From Streptomyces sp. NBC_00539 (lineage in GTDB: Bacteria; Actinomycetota; Actinomycetes; Streptomycetales; Streptomycetaceae), in the NCBI RefSeq assembly GCF_036346105.1, contig NZ_CP107811.1, positions 1,240,001-1,304,000 of the forward strand: a DNA stretch of 64,000 nt, read 5' to 3'. Both the position numbers and the translations under genes were made by a program. The notes beneath the pieces were generated by a model. That model searched no databases. It worked only from the letters and a program-made list of their open reading frames with translations, and was not told the origin of the DNA. Positions 28,677 to 41,289 of the stretch are shown here, in pieces (positions within the stretch are counted from its first letter, which is position 1; every line of letters begins with the position of its first letter).

Positions 28677-29293
28677 GTCAAACCCTGCCTTGTGGGACGG
28701 GCGGCCAGGAACCGCAGTGTCCTGCAAGGGCGCCCGGGCAGTCCAAGCCTTTTCCCCGCAGCGCACCCCTGTGCGCCACGGCACGCTCCTGTGCGCCGTG
28801 CGTCACCACCGCGCACTCGCCGGTTCACCCCTCGCCCGGGGTTACCGCCCGACTCCTGCGTCTGTGCAGGTGGAAACGGCTTGCGCCCCCGGGCCACCGA
28901 CACGCCGCACCGGCGGTCCGGTCCGGCGGGACAGCCGGAGCCCGTCTTTCGTGTGTATCTACAAGAGGGGCCAGCTGACCAGCCAACTCCTTTAGGGGTT
29001 CGGTGACTTTTCGCCGGCAGGGCCCGGCGGATGTACTTGCGCTATTCCGCATTAACAGCACGTGAACGAAGCTTCGGAGGGGACAGTGGGGGGCTTTTTT
29101 ATGATCACCCAGAGTTCTCCCGCCCGTGGTGACCAGCCCGGACCCACCGGAGCAGCACGTCGTCGACGCCCAGCCGCGCCGATCTCCCGCGGGTGTCGCG
29201 GACCGAGCTGATTTCGAGGCGGAACCGCCAATCCCCACTTGTTGCCCCGGGTGCACCCGGGGCGCCCCCACAGTCTGCGACAGAGGAGAGACC
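28677..29293. other. 617-bp region between ABC exporter and guanine deaminase
   Basis: Contains a small 6-bp stem with TTTA loop (28985-29000), the octamer GATGTACT at 29030-29037, and a GGGGGGC-TTTTTT tract at 29088-29100. One small open frame with a good ribosome site is listed separately. No purine riboswitch core was recognised. Confidence 0.5.
29086..29211 (+). CDS. Possible leader peptide upstream of guanine deaminase
   Basis: 41 codons from GTG at 29086 with GGAGGGG at 29076-29082. It begins VGGFFMITQSS and has an RRRR stretch in the middle. It ends 82 bp before the deaminase ATG. Coding bias is weak, so this may be chance. Confidence 0.25.
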   Translation: MGGFFMITQSSPARGDQPGPTGAARRRRPAAPISRGCRGPS

Positions 29294-29797
29294 ATGACCG
29301 CGCACACTCAAGAAAAGAGCATCCAGGAGCTCGAGCGCACCTGGATGGACGAGGCCATCGGCCTTGCCACCAACAGCGTGAAGAACGGTGGCGGTCCGTT
29401 CGGCGCACTGATCGCCAAGGACGGCGAAATCGTTGCGATCGGGAACAACAACGTCACCTCGCACCTGGACCCGACGGCCCACGGCGAGGTGACCGCGATC
29501 CGTGCAGCGTGTCAGGCGCTGGGCACCTTCTCGCTCGAAGGCTGCGTCCTGGTCACCTCGTGCGAGCCGTGCCCGATGTGTCTCTCCTCCGCTCTGTGGG
29601 CGCGGGTCGACCGGATCATCTTCGCCGCTGACCGCGATGACGCCGCGGGGGCCGGTTTCGACGACCGCAAGTTCTACGACCTGCTCGAGAAGCGGCCCGC
29701 GGAGCTGTGGCCGATGGAGATCGAGCGAGTGGACATGCCGAACCGTACGGCGCCGTTCGAGGCGTGGCTCGCCAAGGCCGACCGCATCGACTACTGA
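29294..29797 (+). CDS. guaD: Guanine deaminase, cytidine-deaminase fold
   Basis: 167 residues. Zinc-site motifs of the CDA family are complete: PTAHGEVTAIRAA (HxE with the proton-shuttle Glu) and TSCEPCPMCLSSALWARVDRI (PCxxC). The sequence GGGPFGALIAKDGEIV and the C-terminal AFEAWLAKADRIDY match the GuaD subgroup. It converts guanine to xanthine, the substrate of the xanthine dehydrogenase encoded opposite. GAGGAGA precedes the ATG. Confidence 0.88.
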   Translation: MTAHTQEKSIQELERTWMDEAIGLATNSVKNGGGPFGALIAKDGEIVAIGNNNVTSHLDPTAHGEVTAIRAACQALGTFSLEGCVLVTSCEPCPMCLSSALWARVDRIIFAADRDDAAGAGFDDRKFYDLLEKRPAELWPMEIERVDMPNRTAPFEAWLAKADRIDY

Positions 29798-30052: not shown

Positions 30053-30862
30053 TCAGTCGCCCTCTGTTTCGAAGGTGCGCAGCAGATCGGCGGCGACGCT
30101 CACGGCGATCGTCGCGGGTTCCTTGCCGGTGACGTCGGCGAGCCCGATCGGGGTCTTGATCCGGTCGATGGTCGCCTCGTCGTGACCGCCCTCGGTGGCG
30201 AGGCGCTTGCGGAACCTCACCCACTTGGCCGCCGACCCGATCAGCCCGATGGAGCCGAGCTGCGGGGTGCGCAAGGCGGCGTCGCACAGCGCGGCGTCCT
30301 CGGCGTGGTCGTGGGTCATGATCAGGACGTGGGTACCGCGCGGCAGCTCCTCCAGCACCTCCTCGGGCAGCAGGGGCGTGTGGTGCACGTGCACCTGCGC
30401 CACCGAGTCCTCCAGGACGTCGAGCCGCTCCTTGGTGAGCATGTCGGAGCGGGTGTCGATCAGGTGGAGGTCGAGGTCCTGGCGTGCCAGGATGCGCGCC
30501 AGCTCAAGCCCGACGTGACCCACGCCGAACACCGCCACCGCCCTCACCACCGGCAGGGGTTCGAGCAGCACCGAGACCGTGCCGCCGCAGCACTGCACGC
30601 CGTGCTGGTTGGTCACCTTGTCGTTCAGGGCGAAGTCGATCAGTTCCGGCTCGGCCTTCCCCGCGGCGATCATTTCCCTGGACCGGTCGATCGCGACGGC
30701 CTCCACATTGCCACCGCCGATCGACCCCCAGGTCCCACTCTGCCCCACCACCAGTTTCGCGCCGGCGTCGCGCGGGGCATGGCCGCGCACGGTCGCGACG
30801 GTCACCAGCACGCCGCACTCCCGGCGTGCCCGCAACCGCGCGACCGCAGCGACCCACGTCAT
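30053..30862 (-). CDS. xdhC: XdhC molybdenum cofactor maturation factor
   Basis: About 269 residues. The N-terminal XdhC domain has LVTVATVRGHAPRDAGAKLVV and GSIGGGNVEA; the C-terminal Rossmann part has AVFGVGHVGLELARIL and DTRSDML. XdhC binds the molybdenum cofactor, promotes its sulfuration and inserts it into xanthine dehydrogenase. Its ATG begins one base after the xdhB stop (TGACATG), indicating coupling. Last gene of the operon. Confidence 0.9.
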   Translation of the reverse strand: MTWVAAVARLRARRECGVLVTVATVRGHAPRDAGAKLVVGQSGTWGSIGGGNVEAVAIDRSREMIAAGKAEPELIDFALNDKVTNQHGVQCCGGTVSVLLEPLPVVRAVAVFGVGHVGLELARILARQDLDLHLIDTRSDMLTKERLDVLEDSVAQVHVHHTPLLPEEVLEELPRGTHVLIMTHDHAEDAALCDAALRTPQLGSIGLIGSAAKWVRFRKRLATEGGHDEATIDRIKTPIGLADVTGKEPATIAVSVAADLLRTFETEGD

Positions 30863-30863
30863 G

Positions 30864-33319
30864 TCAGGCACCACTCAACGCGGTGGCGTCGGTGCGGACC
30901 CTGCCGCCCGTGGCGTGGCCGTTGCCGGCATGACCGTTGGCAGCGCCGTTGACGACAGATCCCTCGCGCGCGTCACCGCTGCCGGAGGCATCGCCCTGGC
31001 GGGCCGCCTCGATGGCCCAGTACACCGCCTCCGGCGTCGCCGGCGCGGCCAGCTCGACGCTGACCCCGCTCGGGCCGAACGCGGCAGCGGCCTGCCGCAG
31101 CGCTTCGCGCACGCAGAACGCCAGCATCAGGGGAGGCTCGCCCACGGCCTTGGAGCCGAACACGGCGCCCTCTTCGTGGGCGTTCTCCATCAGCGTGACG
31201 TTGAACTCCTCGGGCATCTCCGAGAAGCTCGGCAGCTTGTACGTGCTCGCGGCCTGGGTCAGCAGCCGACCGCGGTTCGGCCCGTCACTGGCGTCCCAGC
31301 GCATGTCCTCCAGCGTCAGCCAGCCCGCGCCCTGCACGAAGCCGCCCTCGACCTGACCGATGTCGATCATCGGGGAGAGGCTGTCGCCGACGTCGTGAAC
31401 GATGTCGACCCGACGGATGCGGTACTTGCCGGTGAAGCCGTCCACCTCGACCTCGGCCGCGGCGGCGCCGTAGGAGAAGTACTTGAACGGCGAGCCCCGG
31501 AAGGTCTTCGCGTCCCAGTGCAGGCCCTCGGTCCGGTAGTAACCGGACGCCGACAGCTGGACCCGCTGGAAGTACGCGGTGCGCACCAGGTCGTCCCAGG
31601 CCAGCTCCTTGTCGCTGCCCAAGGCGCGGGCGACGCCCTCGACGATGCGCACGTCCGAGGCGTTCGAACCCAGCTGGCTGGCGGCCACCTGCAACAGCCG
31701 CGCGCGCAGCTGCTCGCAAGCGTTCTTGACCGCGCCACCGTTGAGGTCCGCCCCGGAACTGGCGGCGGTAGCAGAGGTGTTGGGTACCTTGTCGGTCCGC
31801 GTGGGGGCCAGCCGCACCTTGTGCAGCGGGATGCCCAGCGTGGTCGCGGCCACCTGCAGCATCTTGGTGTGCAGGCCCTGGCCCATCTCGGTGCCGCCGT
31901 GGTTGATCAGGACGGAGCCGTCCTTGTAGATCAGCACGAGCGCGCCGGCCTGGTTGAAGGCCGTGAGGTTGAACGAGATGCCGAACTTGATGCCGGTGAT
32001 CGCGAGCGCCCGCTTGGTGTGCGGGTGCGCGGCGTTGAACGCCGCGATCTCGCGCTTGCGGTCGGCGATGCCGCCGTTGTTCTCGACCTGCTCCCAGACG
32101 GCGGCGATCCGCTCCGCCTGAGGGACCGGCTGGCCGTACGGCGTCGCCTGCCCCAGACCCGGCTGGTAGAAGTTGCGCTTGCGCAGCTCCATCGGGTCCA
32201 GGCCGAGCAGCGGCGCGACCCGGCCCAGGATGTCCTCGATCACCAGCATGCCCTGGGGTCCGCCGAAGCCGCGGAAGGCCGTGTTGGAGACCTTGTTGGT
32301 CTTGGCGATGCGACCGGCGACCCTCGCGTTGGGGATCCAGTACGTGTTGTCGATGTGACACAGCGCACGGGCGCACACCGGCTCGGACAGGTCCAGGCTC
32401 CAGCCGCCGTCCGCGGTCAGCGTGGCGTCCAGCGCCTGGATGCGGCCGTCGGCATCGAAGCCGATCTTCCACTCGGCGTGGAACCCGTGCCGCTTGCCGG
32501 ACATGGTCAGGTCCTGGGTGCGGTTGAGCCGCACGCGGACCGGCCGGCCGGTCAGCTTGGCGCCGAGCGCGGCAATGGCCGCGAAGCCGTGCGGCTGCAT
32601 CTCCTTGCCGCCGAAACCGCCGCCCATCCGCAGGCACTGCACGGTCACCTCGTGGCTGTGCAGACCGAGGACGTGCGCGACGATCTCCTGGGTCTCCGAG
32701 GGGTGCTGGGTGCTGCTCTGGATGAACACCTGCTCGGCCTCGTCGATGTAGGCCAGCGCGGCGTGCGTCTCCAGGTAGAAGTGCTCCTGGTCGGAGAACT
32801 GGAACTCGCCCGTGAACACGTGCGCGGATTCGGCGAACCCGGCGTCGATGTCGCCGGTCTCCATCACGGGCCGGGCACCGTGGAAGCTCTCGGCCGCGAT
32901 CGCTTCCTTCAGCGTGATCAGGGAGGGCAGTTCGTCGAGTTCCACCTCGACGGCGGCCGCACCGAGCCGGGCCGCCTCCAGGGTCTCGCCGAGCACCCAG
33001 GCCACCGCGTGACCGTGGAACATGACCTCGTCGGGGAACAGCGGCTCGTCGTGCTTCATGCCGGCGTCGTTGACGCCGGGCACGTCGGCGACGGTGAGCA
33101 CGCGGACCACGCCGGGCACGGCGAGCGCGGGCTCGGTACGCAGTGCGGTGATCTTGCCCCGGGTCTTCATGACCTGGACCGGGTAGGCGTGCAGCGTGTC
33201 CTTGGTGCGGTACACCAGGTCGTCGGTGTAGAGCGCGGTACCGGTGACGTGCAGGACCGCACTCTCGTGCGGCATGGAGACGCCGACTACGGGCTTCTCG
33301 GGACGCTCGGACAAATGGC

Positions 33320-33323
<4 letters not shown>
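30864..33323 (-). CDS. xdhB: Xanthine dehydrogenase molybdopterin subunit
   Basis: 819 residues, normal for the subunit. Molybdenum-site motifs are visible: QHPSETQEIVAHVLG, MGGGFGGKEMQ, NTAFRGFGGPQGM, EMGQGLHTKM and the catalytic-Glu region SKAVGEPPLML. It oxidises hypoxanthine and xanthine to urate using cofactor inserted by XdhC. The ATG at 33323 overlaps the xdhA stop (ATGA). A Gly/Asn/His-rich tail of about 45 residues is atypical. Confidence 0.92.
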
Positions 33324-34795
<1,472 letters not shown>

Positions 34796-35200: not shown

Positions 35201-35235
35201 TCGGGCCCGGCACACGTGAGGTGTGCCGGGCCCGA
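35201..35235 (-). terminator. Terminator of the five-gene operon
   Basis: Perfect 15-bp stem (TCGGGCCCGGCACAC and complement) with a 5-nt loop, 12 bp past the histidine phosphatase stop. It separates that operon from xdhABC, which lies downstream on the same strand. Confidence 0.88.
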
Positions 35236-35246
35236 TGGCCTGCGGT

Positions 35247-35873
35247 TCAGTTCAAGTGGTGGGTGTCGTTGAGCGCCCGCACGGTGGCGGTGCCGTCCCC
35301 TTCGTACGTCACCGTCGACAGGGAGGCCGCTGCGACCTCCATGCGGAACAAGGTGTGCGCCGGGGCTCGGAGGGCGAGGCGGACCAAGGTCCTGATGGGG
35401 CCGACGTGGGAGACGACGAGGACCGTGGCTCCGGCGTGGCGGGCCATGAGGCCGTCCCGGACGGCGGCGGCCCTGCGGGCGACCTGTTGCATGGTCTCCC
35501 CCGCGCCCGACGGTGGAACCTCGGGCGAGGCGAGCCATGCGCTCAGGTCGTCCGGGTGGCGTTCGCGGACTTCGGCGAAGGTCAGGCCCTCCCAGGCGCC
35601 GAAGTCCGCTTCCCGCAGATCCCGCTCCACCTGCACGCCCAGGCCCAGGCGCGCGGCCACGGCCCGGGCGGTCTCCCGGCAGCGTCGCATCGGTGACGTG
35701 ACGACCGCCTCGATGCCGCCGCGGTGGGCGAGGGCCTCTGCTACGGCCTGCGCCTGGGCGCGTCCGGCCGGAGAGAGCCCCGGGTCGGACCCTCCGCTGC
35801 CGGAGAGCCGCCGCTGCGGGGTGAGCAGGGTTTCGCCGTGCCGCAGCAGCACGAGCGTCGTCACGTCGCTCAC
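35247..35873 (-). CDS. Histidine phosphatase (phosphoglycerate-mutase fold)
   Basis: 208 residues. The N-terminal LVLLRHGET is the RHG catalytic motif with the phosphorylated His; DFGAWEGLTFAEVRERHP and VLVVSHVGPIRTLVRLAL supply the acid and second His. Members dephosphorylate small metabolites. The GTG start overlaps the TGA of the SRPBCC gene (GTGA). Last gene of the operon; a pathway phosphatase role is inference. Confidence 0.88.
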   Translation of the reverse strand: MSDVTTLVLLRHGETLLTPQRRLSGSGGSDPGLSPAGRAQAQAVAEALAHRGGIEAVVTSPMRRCRETARAVAARLGLGVQVERDLREADFGAWEGLTFAEVRERHPDDLSAWLASPEVPPSGAGETMQQVARRAAAVRDGLMARHAGATVLVVSHVGPIRTLVRLALRAPAHTLFRMEVAAASLSTVTYEGDGTATVRALNDTHHLN

Positions 35874-36349
35874 TTCGCGGTCTTGGCGAAGTGGTCCCGA
35901 ACGGCGTCGGTCTGCTGCTCCATGACGTCGATGATGGCCTCGACCACGTTCAGGTCGGCGTCCTCGGCGATCTCCAGGACCCGCGACCAGTCGAAGAAGC
36001 TGCGGTCCGGCTCGTTGGTGACGGGGAGCACGCGGATGGTGGCCTCGTAGCTGGCGACGCCGCTGGTGGGGGCGATGGCCCGGTAGGACTGGGTCTTGTT
36101 GATCTCGTCCCGGGCGGCGATCTCCTGTTGGACGAGGCGGCCGTTGAGCGTGAGCCGGAAATCGTAGCGGGCCGGGACCGTGTCCACCGAGGCTCCGTCC
36201 ACCCACGTCACGTCCGTGTGGATGTCCAGGTCGCCCGGGGACACGATCTCCAGGATCTGCATGGCGTCGCGGACGGTCGCCCACACGGTGTCCGGGTCGG
36301 CCTCGAGGATGGTGGAGTGGTACATGGTGTGCTTGCGCTGGATCGGCAC
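35870..36349 (-). CDS. SRPBCC (START-like) family protein
   Basis: 159 residues. Opens with MYHSTILEADPDTVWATVRDA, the typical first strand and helix of a polyketide-cyclase/START-like fold, and ends in a long helix (NVVEAIIDVMEQQTDAVRDHF). These proteins bind hydrophobic ligands or catalyse cyclisation and dehydration. Position 4 in the operon, 15 bp after the carbamoyltransferase stop. Confidence 0.75.
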   Translation of the reverse strand: MPIQRKHTMYHSTILEADPDTVWATVRDAMQILEIVSPGDLDIHTDVTWVDGASVDTVPARYDFRLTLNGRLVQQEIAARDEINKTQSYRAIAPTSGVASYEATIRVLPVTNEPDRSFFDWSRVLEIAEDADLNVVEAIIDVMEQQTDAVRDHFAKTAK

Positions 36350-36364
36350 GGGGTGGTCCTTCTT

Positions 36365-38173
36365 CTACTGGTTGACGAGTCCGGTCTTGGTGACGAGGTG
36401 GTTCCCGAGGACCAGGTGGTCGATCTCGGTGCCCATGAAGCAGTTCAGGGCGTCGGTGGGGGTGCACACGATGGGCTCCCCGGCGACGTTGAACGAGGTG
36501 TTGATCAGGCAGGGCGTGTCGGTGAGTTCGATGAACTTCCGCAGCAGGGCCGTGAGCCGTGGGGTTCCCTCGTCCGTCAGCGTCTGGATGCGGGAGGTGC
36601 CGTCCACGTGTACGGCGCCGGGGATGCGGTCCTTGTACTCGTCGCGGACGGGGAAGACGAACGTCATGTACGGGGAGCTGGTCTTGCGCCCCATGTCGAA
36701 GATCTTCGGGGCCTGCTCCTCGAGGACGAGGGGGGCGAACGGGCGGAACGGCTCGCGGTGCTTGACGCGGGTGTTGATGATGTCCTTGATGTCGCCGAAG
36801 CCGGGGTTGGCGATGATGCTGCGGTGCCCCAGCGCGCGCGGCCCGTGCTCGACGCGGCCCTCGAACCAGCCGATGACGACCTTCTCCGTCAGAAGCTTCG
36901 CCACGTGCTCGACGACCTCGTCGTCGTCCAGGCGCGAGACCGTGACCCGGCCGGCGAAGCCCTCGAGGGCCTCCTCGATCGCGGCGTCGTCGTAGGACGG
37001 CCCCAGGTAGGGGGTGATGGGTGCGGCGGCGGCACGGATGTCCGCGGGGTCGGTGCCGGGGTGGTTCAGCCACGCGTGGGCCGCGGCTCCGATGGTGATG
37101 CCGGTGTCGGAGGCACCGAAGCTGACCTGCATGTCCTCGAAGCGGGAACCTTCGAACAGCGGGGTGTTGTTCAGGCAGTTCAGGGCGACGCCGCCTTCGA
37201 ACAACAGCCGGTCGAGATCCGTCCTGTTCTCCAGGTGGCGGACCTGGTGGGCGGTGGCGACGTTCAGCATCTGCTGCGCGGCGGCGGCGACGCGGGCCTT
37301 GTACTCGAGGGTGTCTTCGAAGGGTCCGAAGTACTCCTCGAACAGGGCGTCGTGACTGTGCAGGTCGTCGGTCCGCAGGGGCTTGGTGAAGGTGTAGCGG
37401 CCGTCGTCGTGCAGCGTCAGGAAGTGTTCGAGGAACGGGTTCGGCGTCGGGGGCGCGGTGTACCCGGCCAGGCCCATCACCTTGTACTCGTCGTTGTTGG
37501 GGACGAAGCCGAGGAAGCGGGTGATGCAGGAGAACAAGGTGCCGATGGAGAACTCGGAGCCGGTGACGGAGTCGTCGAAGACGGTGATCCGGCCGTCGCG
37601 GATCTCGCCCGTCAAGGTCGAGAAGCGTTCGGCGCGGCCGTCGCTGACGAGGAACGCGGAGTCCTTCATGCCGGCGAGGTAGTACCCGGTCGTCGCGTGG
37701 GCCAAGTGGTGAGGGACGAAGCGGACCGTGGCCGGGTCGGGGCGGTGCCCGGTGCGGGCCTCGAAGTCGGCGAGGATCGCCTCGTGGCTGACGACCTGGT
37801 CGAACAGGTCGGATATGTTGCCCATGAGTTCGGCCTTCGCGGGCTGGGGCGCCGGCGATCTGCGGATCCCGTCCAGGATCTCGCCCAGTATCTGGCTGGA
37901 CCAGTTCCAGGGGAAGGCGAACAGGTCGACGTCGTCGAACGTGATCCCGGCCTCGTCGAGGCACCAGTCGATCGCACCCTTGGGGAAGTCGGTGGTCTTC
38001 TTCTCCCGGTTGAGGCGTTCTTCCTCCACCGCGGCGACCAGGCGTCCGTCGACCAGGAGTGCGGCGGCGGCGTCGTGGCCCAAGAGGTAGTGCTTGTTGA
38101 TGCCGGTTGCGCCGAGGCGTTCGGAGAAGAACTCCGACACCCGGCTGAAACCATTACATCCCAGAACAATCAC
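36365..38173 (-). CDS. NodU/TobZ-type O-carbamoyltransferase
   Basis: 602 residues, the usual two-domain length. N-terminal Kae1-like ATPase/adenylation half: HDAAAALLVDGRLVAAVEEERLNREK, VRFVPHHLAHATTGYY (metal-binding HH) and GLAGYTAPP. C-terminal half: RVEHGPRALGHRSIIANP, REPFRPFAPLVLEE and CLINTSFNVAGEPIVCTP. Family members make carbamoyl-adenylate from carbamoyl phosphate and transfer the carbamoyl group to a hydroxyl, nearly always in antibiotic or Nod-factor pathways. GTG start with GGAAGGAA upstream. Confidence 0.9.
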   Translation of the reverse strand: MIVLGCNGFSRVSEFFSERLGATGINKHYLLGHDAAAALLVDGRLVAAVEEERLNREKKTTDFPKGAIDWCLDEAGITFDDVDLFAFPWNWSSQILGEILDGIRRSPAPQPAKAELMGNISDLFDQVVSHEAILADFEARTGHRPDPATVRFVPHHLAHATTGYYLAGMKDSAFLVSDGRAERFSTLTGEIRDGRITVFDDSVTGSEFSIGTLFSCITRFLGFVPNNDEYKVMGLAGYTAPPTPNPFLEHFLTLHDDGRYTFTKPLRTDDLHSHDALFEEYFGPFEDTLEYKARVAAAAQQMLNVATAHQVRHLENRTDLDRLLFEGGVALNCLNNTPLFEGSRFEDMQVSFGASDTGITIGAAAHAWLNHPGTDPADIRAAAAPITPYLGPSYDDAAIEEALEGFAGRVTVSRLDDDEVVEHVAKLLTEKVVIGWFEGRVEHGPRALGHRSIIANPGFGDIKDIINTRVKHREPFRPFAPLVLEEQAPKIFDMGRKTSSPYMTFVFPVRDEYKDRIPGAVHVDGTSRIQTLTDEGTPRLTALLRKFIELTDTPCLINTSFNVAGEPIVCTPTDALNCFMGTEIDHLVLGNHLVTKTGLVNQ

Positions 38174-38195
38174 GGCATTCCTTCCCGTTGTGGGG

Positions 38196-39263
38196 CTACT
38201 TGGCGATCAGCAGGTCGCGGAGCTTTTCACCGGCCGCGGGTGCCTGGCACAGGCCCGCACCGGTGAATCCGGCCGCGTACAGGAAGCGGCGGGTGGGGTG
38301 TTGGCCGATGAGGGGGGTGTTGTCGGGGCTGGCGTCGAAGTCGCCGGACCACGCGCGGTGCAGGCCGATGCCGTCCAGGGCGGGGAACAGGCTGCCGAGG
38401 TGGCCTGAGATGCGGCCGAGCCAGTCCTCACGTGCCTCCTCGGCCTTGGGCATGCCCATGGCCAGGAGGATGCGGTCCTTCCACGAGCGGATCCGCAGGC
38501 CGGACGAGGCGTGCATCGTCATGGGCATCTCGCGGTGCGGCGGGGGCGGAACGTCGGTGAACAGCATTTCGATGGCGTGGGGCGTCAGCGGCAGGTCGAC
38601 CGACGCCATGGACGCCACCTCGCCGGACCAGGGGCCGGCCGTGCAGACGATGCTGTCGGCCTTGATCCTGCCCCGCGGGGTGTGGACGGTGTTGTCGTCG
38701 TCGATGCGGGTCACCGGTGTGTGGGTGAACAGGCGGGCGCCGTGATTGCGGGCGCCGGCGGCGTAGCCGCGGACGATGTCGAGGCCGTCCACGTGGTAGG
38801 CCTCGGGGGACCAGGCGGCGGCGAGCACGGCACGTTCGTTGATCAGCGGGTTGAGCTCGGACGCTTCGCGGGCACTGATCAGGCCGACTTGGACGCCCGC
38901 GGCCTGCTGGGCGTGGCGGGTGGCCTCGAAGCCGGCGATCTGCTGTTCGTCGGTGAACAGCACCATGAACCCGAGCCGCTTGAGGGCCAGGGGGGCCGCC
39001 GTGCGGTGGGCGAAGTCGTGGTAGGCGTTCAGGCTGCGCACGGCCATGCGCCCGGTGCCGGGATCGCCCGGGAAATAGGTGCGGACCATGCCCGCGGTGT
39101 GTGCGGACGAGCCGCCGCCGAGGCTTCCGCGTTCCAGCAGTACGGTGTTCACGCCGGCTTCGGCGAGGTGGTGGGCGGCAGAGGTTCCGATCACTCCCCC
39201 GCCGATGACGACGGCGTCGGCGCGGTCGGGAAGGGCGTTCGAGGTCTTCTCGGCTGCGGGCAC
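38196..39263 (-). CDS. FAD-dependent oxidoreductase, DAO/glycine-oxidase family
   Basis: 355 residues. The N-terminal dinucleotide site is ADAVVIGGGVIGTSAAHHLAEAGVNTVLLERGSLGGGSS; the substrate domain includes SPEAYHVDGLDIVRGYAAGA and the C-terminus the FAD-contact DNTPLIGQHPTRRFLYAAGFTGAGLCQAPAAGE. DAO-family flavoenzymes oxidise C-N bonds of primary or secondary amines. The GTG at 39263 starts two bases after the upstream stop, so the gene is coupled to the cucumopine-synthase-like gene. Confidence 0.87.
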   Translation of the reverse strand: MPAAEKTSNALPDRADAVVIGGGVIGTSAAHHLAEAGVNTVLLERGSLGGGSSAHTAGMVRTYFPGDPGTGRMAVRSLNAYHDFAHRTAAPLALKRLGFMVLFTDEQQIAGFEATRHAQQAAGVQVGLISAREASELNPLINERAVLAAAWSPEAYHVDGLDIVRGYAAGARNHGARLFTHTPVTRIDDDNTVHTPRGRIKADSIVCTAGPWSGEVASMASVDLPLTPHAIEMLFTDVPPPPHREMPMTMHASSGLRIRSWKDRILLAMGMPKAEEAREDWLGRISGHLGSLFPALDGIGLHRAWSGDFDASPDNTPLIGQHPTRRFLYAAGFTGAGLCQAPAAGEKLRDLLIAK

Positions 39264-39265
39264 GG

Positions 39266-40225
39266 CTACGCGGCTCCCTCGGCGCCCTGCTGGCGCAGGT
39301 GGTCCCCGGTCTCCCACGGGTACAGCTGCAGGTTCCAGCCGCCGAGGCAGTTGATGTAGAGGGCCATCTGGCTGGTGACGGCGTAGAAGTCGCCGCGGTC
39401 GAGGACGTCGAGGACGTCGAGGAAGCGCTGGGTGAACGCCCACAGCTTCTCCAGGCCGCAGTAGCCCAGGAACTCGGCGGGGACGCCGACCAGGAGGCGG
39501 GTCATGTGGACCAGGGACGCCATGGGCATGTCCTGTACGGCGGCACGGACGAGTCCGCCGTAGGCGGCGTAGCCCAGGGGCCGGGTCTCGCCGTTCACGA
39601 ACAGCAGCGTGGGAAGGACGGTGCCGAAGTTGCCCGCCCGGGAGGGGATGACGCCCTGATGGAGGCCTTCCAGCTCGACCGGGGGCGCGAGCCAGATCTT
39701 CTCGGTCTCGGCGAGGATGTCCGCGATCAGTTGGGCGGCGTCCTCGTTGGCGGCGCGGAGCATCGGGATGCGGTGGCCACCCGGTCCGCCTGCGCGGCGG
39801 ACTTCGGCGACGATCTGCTTCTTGGTGGAGTAGACGGCGTCCCAGATCGCCGCCCCGGCTTCCCGCAGGGCGGGCATGTCTGCTTCACGGATCCGGCCGA
39901 CGGGGGTGGCCGGCATCGGCTCGGTCAGGGTGCCGTACTTGATGCCCAGGTGCTGCAAACCGGAGCAGAACACGGTGCCGTCGGGGGCCTCGCGCCGGTC
40001 GGGGATACGGGTGGCGTGGGGGGTGTGCAGCAGGGTGGGTATCGGCGCCACGTGGTAGAGGTGTTCTCCCGCGATGAGGGCGTGCCCCTGGAGGCTCTGG
40101 TAGGGCAGCGACTCCCACAGGGCGTCGGCGAGCGCCGGGTTGCGGTCGTCGAGATCGGCGGTGACCGTGATGCCCAAGTCGGGCCAGGAGATCGCGATCT
40201 GACGTTCGGACAGCTTCTCGGACAT
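39266..40225 (-). CDS. Cucumopine-synthase-like protein
   Basis: 319 residues. Residues about 8-110 look like the cyclophilin-like DUF3830 fold (AISWPDLGITVTADLDDRNPALADALWESLPYQS ... ALIAGEHLYHVAPIP), and the rest is largely helical, matching the cucumopine synthase C-terminal bundle (YAAYGGLVRAAVQDMPMASL, LGYCGLEKLWAFTQRFLDVLDVLDRGDFYAVTSQMALYINCLGGWNLQLYPW). In Agrobacterium the enzyme joins histidine and 2-oxoglutarate. First gene of the operon, with GGGGAGAA before the ATG. Confidence 0.72.
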   Translation of the reverse strand: MSEKLSERQIAISWPDLGITVTADLDDRNPALADALWESLPYQSLQGHALIAGEHLYHVAPIPTLLHTPHATRIPDRREAPDGTVFCSGLQHLGIKYGTLTEPMPATPVGRIREADMPALREAGAAIWDAVYSTKKQIVAEVRRAGGPGGHRIPMLRAANEDAAQLIADILAETEKIWLAPPVELEGLHQGVIPSRAGNFGTVLPTLLFVNGETRPLGYAAYGGLVRAAVQDMPMASLVHMTRLLVGVPAEFLGYCGLEKLWAFTQRFLDVLDVLDRGDFYAVTSQMALYINCLGGWNLQLYPWETGDHLRQQGAEGAA

Positions 40226-40616
40226 GATTTCTCCCCGTTCGTTGATCCGTCTTGCCCGAGGAGTACATCGTCAACTGGCTTGTTCCAGACAGGCGTTGAA
40301 TACATGAAGCTTGATCATCCCGAGATGTACGTTCCTACGAGAATGACCCCGTCCACATACGAAGCCCCAGCTCAGGCGGCCGTCGGCGCGCGGGCTGCCT
40401 CGGCGCCGTTCGCCAATTCCGCTGCCGGATCAGGCGTGTTGTTCCTTTCGGCCCGCGGCTCGTGGGTGGCGGATAACAACGACCGGATCATCTGGCGGAC
40501 GGCCCTGAGTACGCCGCGTCAGCACGGATCGTCCGGGTGGCTCCATTCGCCCATCGGGTCAGCGCGGGGTCTGCGGCGCGGGCCCTGGAGGCAGCGGCGC
40601 CATCCGAGGGGAGGCG
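40226..40616. other. 391-bp region upstream of the five-gene operon
   Basis: The AT-richer half, 40230-40360, should hold the operon promoter. A plus-strand frame from ATG 40304 (MKLDHPEMYVPTRMTPSTYEA and on) is open past 40700 but has no good ribosome site. The rest may be decayed sequence belonging to the broken phosphatase that follows. Confidence 0.4.
40262..40274 (-). promoter_or_regulatory. TTGAC-GATGTACT motif upstream of the five-gene operon
   Basis: Minus-strand TTGACGATGTACT, 37 bp before the first start. Nearly the same string (TTGACC GATGTACT) forms the -35 region of the xdh promoter, and GATGTACT also lies upstream of guaD. No clear -10 element could be placed. Confidence 0.4.
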
Positions 40617-41289
40617 ATGCTGCCCGCCCCCACGCCGGTCGGGCACCATCGGGCAGCCGTGCGCTACCGGCCTGCCGTGGGCGCGCTGAACGTGTGCGGG
40701 GACTGGTATGACCTGGTCGACCTGCCCGGGGACCGCATCGCGGTCGCCGTCGGCGACGTGGTCGGCCATGGCCTGGGAGCCGCCTGCGTGATGGGGCAGT
40801 TGCGCAGTGCGCTGAGCGCGGCCGCCCGTGTCGCCGACGGCCCGGCCCGGGCCTTGGAAGTCCTGGGGCTGTATGCCCGCCATGTCGAGGGGGCCGAGTC
40901 GACCACGGTGGTGAAGACCTTTGTCGACTGGGACACCCACACGCTCACGTACAGCAGCGCCGGCCATCCGCCGCCTGCTCTGCTACACCCCGACGGCACG
41001 GTGACCTTCCTCGACCAGGCGACCGATCCGCCGCTCGGCGCCCGCCCCGAACACGTCCCGCGGCCGCAGGCCAGTACGGCTTTCGCCGAGGGCGCCACCC
41101 TGGTCATGTACACCGATGGGCTGATCGAGCGCCGCGACGAGGACATCGACGTGAGCCTGGGCCGCCTCGCCGACTCCCTCGTCCGTCATGGGGACACCGG
41201 CCCCGAGGTCCTGGCCGACGCTCCTGTCCGACCTCCTCCCGCCCGGCGGCAGTACCGACGACACCGCGCTGGTCATCATCCGCCTGTGA
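40617..41289 (+). pseudogene. SpoIIE-type phosphatase, truncated and frameshifted
   Basis: The phosphatase core is intact: YRPAVGALNVCGDWYDLVDLPGDRIAVAVGDVVGHG, LTYSSAGHPPPALL and LVMYTDGLIERRDEDID. After about residue 200 (EVLAD) the frame shifts; the expected ending (LLSDLLPPGGSTDDTALVII, stop at 41287-41289) is read in another frame, while the original frame runs on to 41374 as unrelated residues. The N-terminal sensor domain is also missing. Either a true pseudogene or a one-base sequencing error plus an unusually short protein. Confidence 0.7.

Follow-up and report, generated by a model that had tools for sequence, protein, structure and literature searches.

A five-gene Pictet-Spenglerase operon of Streptomyces, a candidate source of a carbamoylated beta-carboline, and its link to a guanine deaminase gene

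The operon and its Pictet-Spenglerase

We analyzed a stretch of 64,000 nucleotides from Streptomyces sp. NBC_00539 (hereafter the window; contig NZ_CP107811.1, positions 1,240,001 to 1,304,000, host genome 7.5 Mb). The window carries a gene for guanine deaminase (guaD) and a compact minus-strand operon encoding a Pictet-Spenglerase (PS; protein P0001), a DAO-family oxidase (DAO), a carbamoyltransferase (CT), an SRPBCC protein and a histidine phosphatase (HP), spaced in that order by 2, 22, 15 and -4 bp.

39266-40225, minus strand: PS of the McbB/StnK2/pyridindolol type, 319 aa (Pfam Cucumopine_C, 2.8e-47)
38196-39263, minus strand: DAO-family FAD amine oxidase, 355 aa (Pfam DAO, 1.8e-61)
36365-38173, minus strand: NodU/TobZ-type O-carbamoyltransferase, 602 aa (Pfam Carbam_trans_C, 2e-66; Carbam_trans_N, 4.5e-36)
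35870-36349, minus strand: SRPBCC (Bet v 1-like) protein, 159 aa (Pfam Polyketide_cyc2, 2.3e-8)
35247-35873, minus strand: HP, 208 aa (Pfam His_Phos_1, 5.5e-58)
35201-35235, no strand: perfect 15-bp inverted repeat with a 5-base loop, terminator-like

An earlier sequence-only reading had described five minus-strand genes here, and all are present between 35247 and 40225, each assigned by Pfam. It extended the operon to 40274; the PS gene is there, but 40274 is only an upstream TTG and the ATG lies at 40225. It also closed the operon with a 15-bp terminator. The inverted repeat is indeed perfect, but a consensus scan for stems with trailing T-runs did not list 35201-35235, so the label comes from the repeat by itself.

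Judged by sequence and by a structural model, the product of 39266-40225 is a McbB-type Pictet-Spenglerase. It has a cyclophilin-like domain followed by the Cucumopine_C helical bundle, and its best PDB match is 3x27 (residues 8-311, phmmer 8.5e-86), followed by chains in which the two domains are permuted. An AlphaFold2 model built from 32 sequences (pLDDT 89, pTM 0.88) superimposes in Foldseek on 3x27, the structure of McbB with tryptophan, with a TM-score of 0.91-0.92 at 46-47% identity. KslB chains rank next at 26-30%. R77, H92 and E102 are invariant across the 32 aligned sequences and align to R93, H108 and E118 of the 3x27 chain; by a constant offset they fit McbB R72, H87 and E97, which we take to be the catalytic residues.

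McbB of the marinacarboline pathway thus resembles the window's enzyme in fold, domain order and aligned catalytic residues, and has tryptophan in its structure; it differs in using oxaloacetaldehyde as carbonyl partner and in belonging to a three-gene pathway, as far as the accessible text of its report goes (PMC7024544). KslB (PDB 9ns6, 9nst and others) has the same two domains and was likewise solved with tryptophan, but its domains are in permuted order; its partner is 2-oxoglutarate according to the PDB entry titles. From this likeness, condensation of L-tryptophan with a carbonyl compound is the predicted reaction of the window's enzyme.

The sequence-only reading had proposed instead a cucumopine-like pathway, in which histidine and a keto acid give an imidazole-fused heterocycle that is then oxidized and carbamoylated. 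Its general outline, a small-molecule pathway that relies on a ring-closing enzyme of the cucumopine family together with an oxidase of the DAO family and a carbamoyltransferase of the NodU/TobZ type, is borne out by the Pfam domains, including the Cucumopine_C match after which the family is named. However, DUF3830 homologues on Agrobacterium and Rhizobium plasmids, presumably of cucumopine-synthase type and set in an opine context, belong to the same domain family and share only 27-29% identity with the PS (over at least 84% of the query). The Pfam match places the product in the cucumopine domain family; the model is closest to McbB (TM 0.92). Histidine is an unlikely substrate because the enzyme is so much more McbB-like, and the sister clusters described below carry either a cassette of the beta-methyltryptophan type or the gene list of the pyridindolol cluster. 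We rejected the opine analogy on fold and identity, and consider a histidine-derived product very improbable.

The nearest solved chains of the DAO are sarcosine oxidase, dimethylglycine dehydrogenase and glycine oxidase, and it shares 34-39% identity with the DAOs next to StnK2-like enzymes. The CT contains both Carbam_trans_N and Carbam_trans_C, and its best PDB match is 7xb6 ('Carbamoyltransferase', 4.2e-202), followed by the novobiocin, GdmN and TobZ enzymes; carbamoyl-phosphate- and ATP-dependent O-carbamoylation is its predicted activity. The SRPBCC model (pLDDT 76.6) resembles Bet v 1-like folds in a general way only: the top Foldseek rows are Bet v 1-like proteins, PYL receptors, norcoclaurine synthase and ZhuI, at 11-22% identity. 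The HP matches phosphoserine phosphatase 1 in the PDB (5.1e-22).

Distribution of the operon and its relation to pyridindolol-type loci

We searched 393 genomes of the genus (PS threshold E<=1e-5), a class-wide sample of 394, and named genomes, from which the best 80 of 114 PS relatives were kept; the named loci counted below are these 80. Loci were typed by neighbourhood as A, B2 (with CT), B1 (without CT), C and D. In the genus, 33 genomes have a PS match. Type A comprises 12 of these, including the window (PS 88-92% identical), and type B2 seven with a CT (73-75%; in G326 the PS is in two pieces, 69 and 76%). Three genomes hold decayed remnants (G040, G006, G157), four are of type B1 (75-77%), six of type C (about 47-50%), and G302 has two weak matches (36 and 26%) with the domains in permuted order. 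All five genes are complete in 18 genus genomes (12 A, 6 B2). In the class sample, 7 of 394 genomes have a PS match at E<=1e-20.

Among the named loci the complete set recurs in 36 of 80 (21 A, 8 B2 and 7 Nocardia), in Streptomyces, Streptacidiphilus and Nocardia, so the five genes are not grouped by chance and the recurrence foreseen by the sequence-only reading is confirmed. One of these loci, L082 of S. cirratus JCM 4738, encodes proteins 85-97% identical to those of the window and shares its gene order. Two loci (L051, L128) combine DAO, CT, SRPBCC and HP of the A type with a PS of the B2 type, which suggests interchangeable enzymes, as if the PS gene had been swapped by recombination.

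B1 loci (9 of the 80) contain PS, DAO, an AMP-binding enzyme, an aldehyde dehydrogenase-like (ALDH) enzyme, HP and an F420-dependent LLM enzyme. This list equals that of the candidate pyridindolol cluster reported from Streptomyces sp. ID38640 / S. alboverticillatus (PMC7955054, accessible text); the match is by gene list, not by the published sequences. The authors propose that tryptophan and glyceraldehyde (phosphate) condense, followed by aromatization and carboxyl reduction. The pyridindolol cluster shares PS, a DAO-type oxidase and HP with the window's operon, and adds the AMP-ligase, ALDH and F420 LLM enzymes. The window's PS is 73-77% identical to the PS of B1 loci, and an HP ortholog (64-69% identity) is found in all nine of them.

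No CT, intact SRPBCC gene, guaD, xanthine dehydrogenase (xdh) genes or operator were found in the nine named B1 loci. Conversely, the AMP-ligase/ALDH pair for reduction of the 3-carboxylate is absent from the window's operon. The window's genome gave no ALDH match at E<=1e-40; for the AMP-ligase the absence refers to the operon. Since CT-type genomes (those whose operon includes the CT) lack a close reductive ALDH, their product must differ from pyridindolol.

In a PS tree of 46 rows, thinned from 96 distinct sequences by dropping most A and D rows as well as L053, L055, L117 and L121, B1 forms a single clade (99/98) nested within the CT type. A topology that unites the 27 CT-type rows was rejected post hoc (p-AU 0.027). 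Six of the nine B1 loci retain a remnant of the 3' part of the SRPBCC gene just upstream of PS (blastn E 2.8e-4 to 9e-17); there were no minus-strand blastn matches, none was detected in L107, L110 or L116, and tblastn picked up the remnant in L105 only. Three CT-type loci (L104, L109, L113) carry AMP-ligase and ALDH genes besides CT and SRPBCC. Together, the nesting, the remnants and these hybrids indicate that a CT-type cluster is the most likely ancestor of the pyridindolol type, which would be its stripped descendant, derived through gene loss.

Guanine deaminase and operator-like sites

Beyond the operon, the window holds genes of purine breakdown and two similar DNA sites.

29294-29797, plus strand: guanine deaminase, GuaD-type with CDA fold, beyond xdhABC (Pfam dCMP_cyt_deam_1, 3.9e-23; PDB 1wkq, 2.5e-44)
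30053-30874, minus strand: XdhC, xanthine dehydrogenase (XDH) accessory protein (Pfam XdhC_C, 3.5e-32; XdhC_CoxI, 2.8e-17)
30864-33323, minus strand: XDH large subunit, start uncertain (Pfam MoCoBD_2, 9.6e-98; MoCoBD_1, 9.6e-91; Ald_Xan_dh_C, 5e-18)
33320-34795, minus strand: XdhA, XDH small subunit (NCBIfam xanthine_xdhA, 442.8 bits, below the cut-off of 467)
40323-40341, minus strand: operator-like site before the PS gene, weakly palindromic in the window (score 23.6; in the training set of the matrix)
28947-28965, minus strand: site of the same type before guaD (score 26.6, matrix trained on PS-upstream sites only)

GuaD matches 1wkq over its full length, and the zinc motifs of the CDA fold, HxE and PCxxC, and the C-terminal Tyr are present in 61 of 61 copies; this Tyr and its role are presumably those of the B. 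subtilis type. Guanine deamination is accordingly its predicted activity.

Across 43 genomes, GuaD at 66% identity or more occurs in 20 of 20 CT-type genomes, including the decayed G040; the best match in the other 23 is 48%. In the larger genus sample GuaD (E<=1e-45) is found in 49 of 393 genomes. All 22 with a CT-type operon or its remnant have it, and the 11 whose PS is of another type all lack it (hypergeometric 9e-23, relatedness ignored). Likewise, in Nocardia GuaD occurs in 18 and PS in 12 of 148 genomes (the PS of G793 is broken), and 12 of 12 genomes with PS have both (1e-13, relatedness again ignored); seven of these 12 were already known to hold the cluster and five are new. GuaD lies under about 10 kb from the operon in 20 of 22 genus genomes (the exceptions being G038, with an intact operon, and G078) and from PS in 11 of 12 Nocardia (exception G880), in several gene orders. 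The sequence-only reading had the pathway type and the recurrence of the gene set right, but overlooked both this link and the closest relative, the pyridindolol cluster.

GuaD is not exclusive to the operon: that notion was ruled out on widening the sample from 43 to 393 genomes, 27 of which have GuaD without a PS match. Of the guaD loci in which the operon is missing or no longer intact, we fetched 20 (18 of these 27, plus G006 and G157). Twelve adjoin xdhABC, three another XDH-type large subunit (MoCoBD) and five neither; five contain operon debris, one weakly. Decayed remnants of the operon lie beside a stop-free guaD frame in L059, L061, L066, L067, L072 (weak), L075 and L076. In a GuaD tree of 61 rows, copies with and without the operon are intermixed (15 CT-label changes, against 18.6 when shuffled), which suggests repeated loss of the operon.

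A strict partnership with XDH was also rejected. XdhA is found in 18 of 20 CT-type genomes, yet also in 3 of 17 operon-less, 1 of 4 B1-type and 1 of 2 C-type genomes; at E<=1e-60 it is missing from 14 of the 17 operon-less genomes sampled. No more than 20 kb separate it from the operon in 11 of the 20 CT-type genomes, and the product of 33320-34795 is the only XdhA match in the window's genome at that threshold.

The strict co-occurrence might mean that the GuaD-like protein, perhaps with XDH, tailors the alkaloid, for example by removing an exocyclic amino group from a carbamoyl-derived ring, and in four loci (L047, L049, L050, L127) GuaD, in some with a second XDH-type large subunit, sits inside the operon. 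However, the deaminase motifs are kept in every copy, and copies from loci that lack the operon reach 88-89% identity with that of the window. These findings do not support GuaD as a neofunctionalized enzyme, and a tailoring role is improbable.

The DNA upstream of PS is conserved among A-type loci although the genes beyond differ. It includes a site that is a clear palindrome, CTTGTAG-RAR-YCTACGAAG, in B2 loci and weaker in A. From 16 PS-upstream sites (A and B2; no Nocardia and no guaD sites) we derived a 19-bp matrix and scanned the window and the loci from L031 onward. Ahead of the PS operon the site reaches 22 or more in 17 of the 21 named A loci and in all 8 complete B2 loci, a set that includes many training sites, and 21.0-28.7 in all 7 Nocardia loci, none of which was in the training set. 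By contrast with these operons, it is missing upstream of PS in B1 (0 of 9, maximum 8.5) and group D (0 of 33, maximum 14.0); two group D loci (L129, L149) have a site just above 22 far from PS.

The window's guaD site lies 335 bp before the matched guaD start, and in Nocardia an upstream guaD site of at least 18 occurs in 5 of 7 loci. Among the 20 guaD loci without an intact operon, seven score 22 or more within 400 bp, and eleven (L068-L071, L073, L074, L077-L081) do so at a distance of up to about 600 bp from guaD, nothing else intervening. Pieces of 400 bp drawn at random from the 20 loci, real sites included, gave a median of -1.0 and a 95th percentile of 9.7, and 22 of 1000 reached 22. 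Some xdhA genes outside the window have a site of 17-21 near -375. A 17-base pattern drawn from the sites was scanned over 11 genomes (about 93 Mb): all eight exact matches, and three of six matches with one mismatch, fall at a PS/guaD cluster. At up to two mismatches there were 62 matches, compared with 37 when the pattern was reversed as a control. Both sites of the window are too degenerate for the pattern to pick up, and the window's PS, xdhA and guaD upstream regions have no exact word of 12 or more bases in common. No regulator gene was found, and the additional sites of the genome scan were not followed up. We consider a putative regulator that reads both the PS-operon and guaD sites.

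It could also be that the same alkaloid pathway merely co-travels with the GuaD and XDH genes, with no biochemical or regulatory link. The 27 genomes with GuaD alone, the 12 operon-less guaD loci adjoining xdhABC, the intermixed tree, and the 9 of 20 operon-less loci lacking an unambiguous strong site before guaD fit such a view. Yet the CT-type operon was never found without GuaD in the two genera sampled, the genes stay close while their order is shuffled, similar operators precede operon and guaD in the window, Nocardia and others, and every exact pattern match falls at these loci. We regard mere co-travel as doubtful.

Downstream of the operator, positions 40226-40322 form a conserved leader block, TTCATG..TTCAACGCCTG..GTTGGCGATG.ACTCCT in relatives, which may be a promoter or another site of this kind. 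A riboswitch was rejected, with no Rfam match at E<=5 in 40100-40620. A consensus fold of 18 sequences gave a covariation term of only 0.07 (1 of 10 pairs compensated); with no Rfam match either, we treat the leader as DNA.

Proposed product and related loci

We propose, with a probability of roughly 0.6, that the product of the operon is a carbamoylated, pyridindolol-like beta-carboline and that the operon forms one regulon with guaD. The proposal draws on gene content, fold, homology, co-occurrence, nesting, remnants and the shared site type; from these we infer the substrates, step order, carbamoyl position, product and regulatory reading of the sites. The PS would join L-tryptophan to a C3 aldehyde, for which glyceraldehyde 3-phosphate is the likeliest candidate, and so form a tetrahydro-beta-carboline; the DAO flavoenzyme would oxidize the new C-N ring. 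The HP, common to the pyridindolol type, would free a side-chain hydroxyl by dephosphorylation, the CT would O-carbamoylate an alcohol, and the SRPBCC protein may bind, reshape or cyclize an intermediate. The 3-carboxylate is probably kept, because the window's genome has no close copy of pyridindolol's reductive ALDH; the predicted product is then C15H13N3O5, [M+H]+ 316.0928 (hand calculation). Strains that have the ALDH module would be expected to give C15H15N3O4, [M+H]+ 302.1135, and either carbamate would lose HNCO (43.006). The PS operon and guaD would be joined through the similar operator, with XDH genes often adjoining.

The enzyme could also take another arylethylamine or aldehyde, with the carbamoyl group placed elsewhere, so that the product is no pyridindolol-like beta-carboline. 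Carbonyl partners do vary in the family, as McbB and KslB illustrate. Nevertheless, the window's PS is 73-77% identical to pyridindolol-type enzymes, these nest inside the CT clade, and DAO and HP are common to both operons; we judge another substrate unlikely.

Several points weigh against our proposal. In the accessible text, the assignment of pyridindolol to its cluster is based on correlation in two producers and not on a knockout (PMC7955054). The reductive ALDH is missing from 13 of 19 CT-type genomes searched, and 38-59% identical in the other six. The CT-type clade test was chosen after the first tree had been viewed. A site of at least 22 before guaD itself occurs in only 11 of 20 operon-less guaD loci; in L067, L072, L075 and L076 the site coincides with or precedes debris of the operon, to which it may once have belonged, and none is seen in L062-L066 (5 of the 20). 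In A-type loci the guaD site is often weak (15-17) or absent, and the window's xdhA has none (score 2.7).

The link to guanine breakdown may be regulatory, protective or precursor-related, and we favour the first. Going further, the alkaloid may act as a purine-status signal or responder, or on guanine metabolism, with one regulator coupling it to guanine-to-urate catabolism in Streptomyces and Nocardia and with pyridindolol as a stripped, unlinked descendant; we offer this tentatively, as possible. A review argues for a purine-antibiotic link in Streptomyces via XdhR and (p)ppGpp (PMC6627660, accessible text); the purine-alkaloid link considered here would be written in cis-regulatory DNA.

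The enzyme families are known, and the scaffold is probably known chemistry. In the open-licence literature, supplements excluded, we found no description of the carbamoylated branch or of how widely it occurs, and none of the guaD regulon or of where the pyridindolol type came from. It is plausible that standard cluster-finding or core-enzyme rules would miss the operon, because the sister pyridindolol cluster is reported to have given no antiSMASH hit (PMC7955054). The results would define a compact alkaloid pathway in at least three actinomycete genera and show how the published pyridindolol cluster is likely to have evolved. Through co-occurrence and a similar DNA site, they would also connect guanine catabolism with an operon of secondary metabolism.

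Among the remaining named loci, L117 has a PS without DAO, CT, SRPBCC or HP, and L121 has PS and DAO. Group D (33 of 80; Nonomuraea, Actinomadura and Nocardia brevicatena) has PS and DAO, and none of CT, SRPBCC and HP was found in its 33 loci; in L134, relatives of the ALDH and the AMP-ligase (50-55%) are present as well. These loci (L129-L161, nearly all Nonomuraea/Actinomadura, PS identity 60-67%) share one further gene family in 27 of 33, a representative of which is a P450, and L129 and L130 have an AMP-ligase family gene. They are a candidate source of the nonocarbolines, whose report names no gene cluster in its accessible text (PMC7148486).

The six group C loci (L052-L056, L058; six of the 393 genomes) gave no CT match. 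They carry a streptonigrin-like PS, one or two DAOs, methyltransferase and aminotransferase families (6 of 6) and a cupin family (4 of 6). The streptonigrin cluster, in the accessible text of its report, has a homologous PS (stnK2) followed by a DAO, like the window's operon, but differs in its beta-methyltryptophan cassette stnQ1-stnK3-stnR and its 48 genes (PMC4742848); the group C set resembles that cassette. In three of the six loci a class-II DAHP synthase family gene lies close by.

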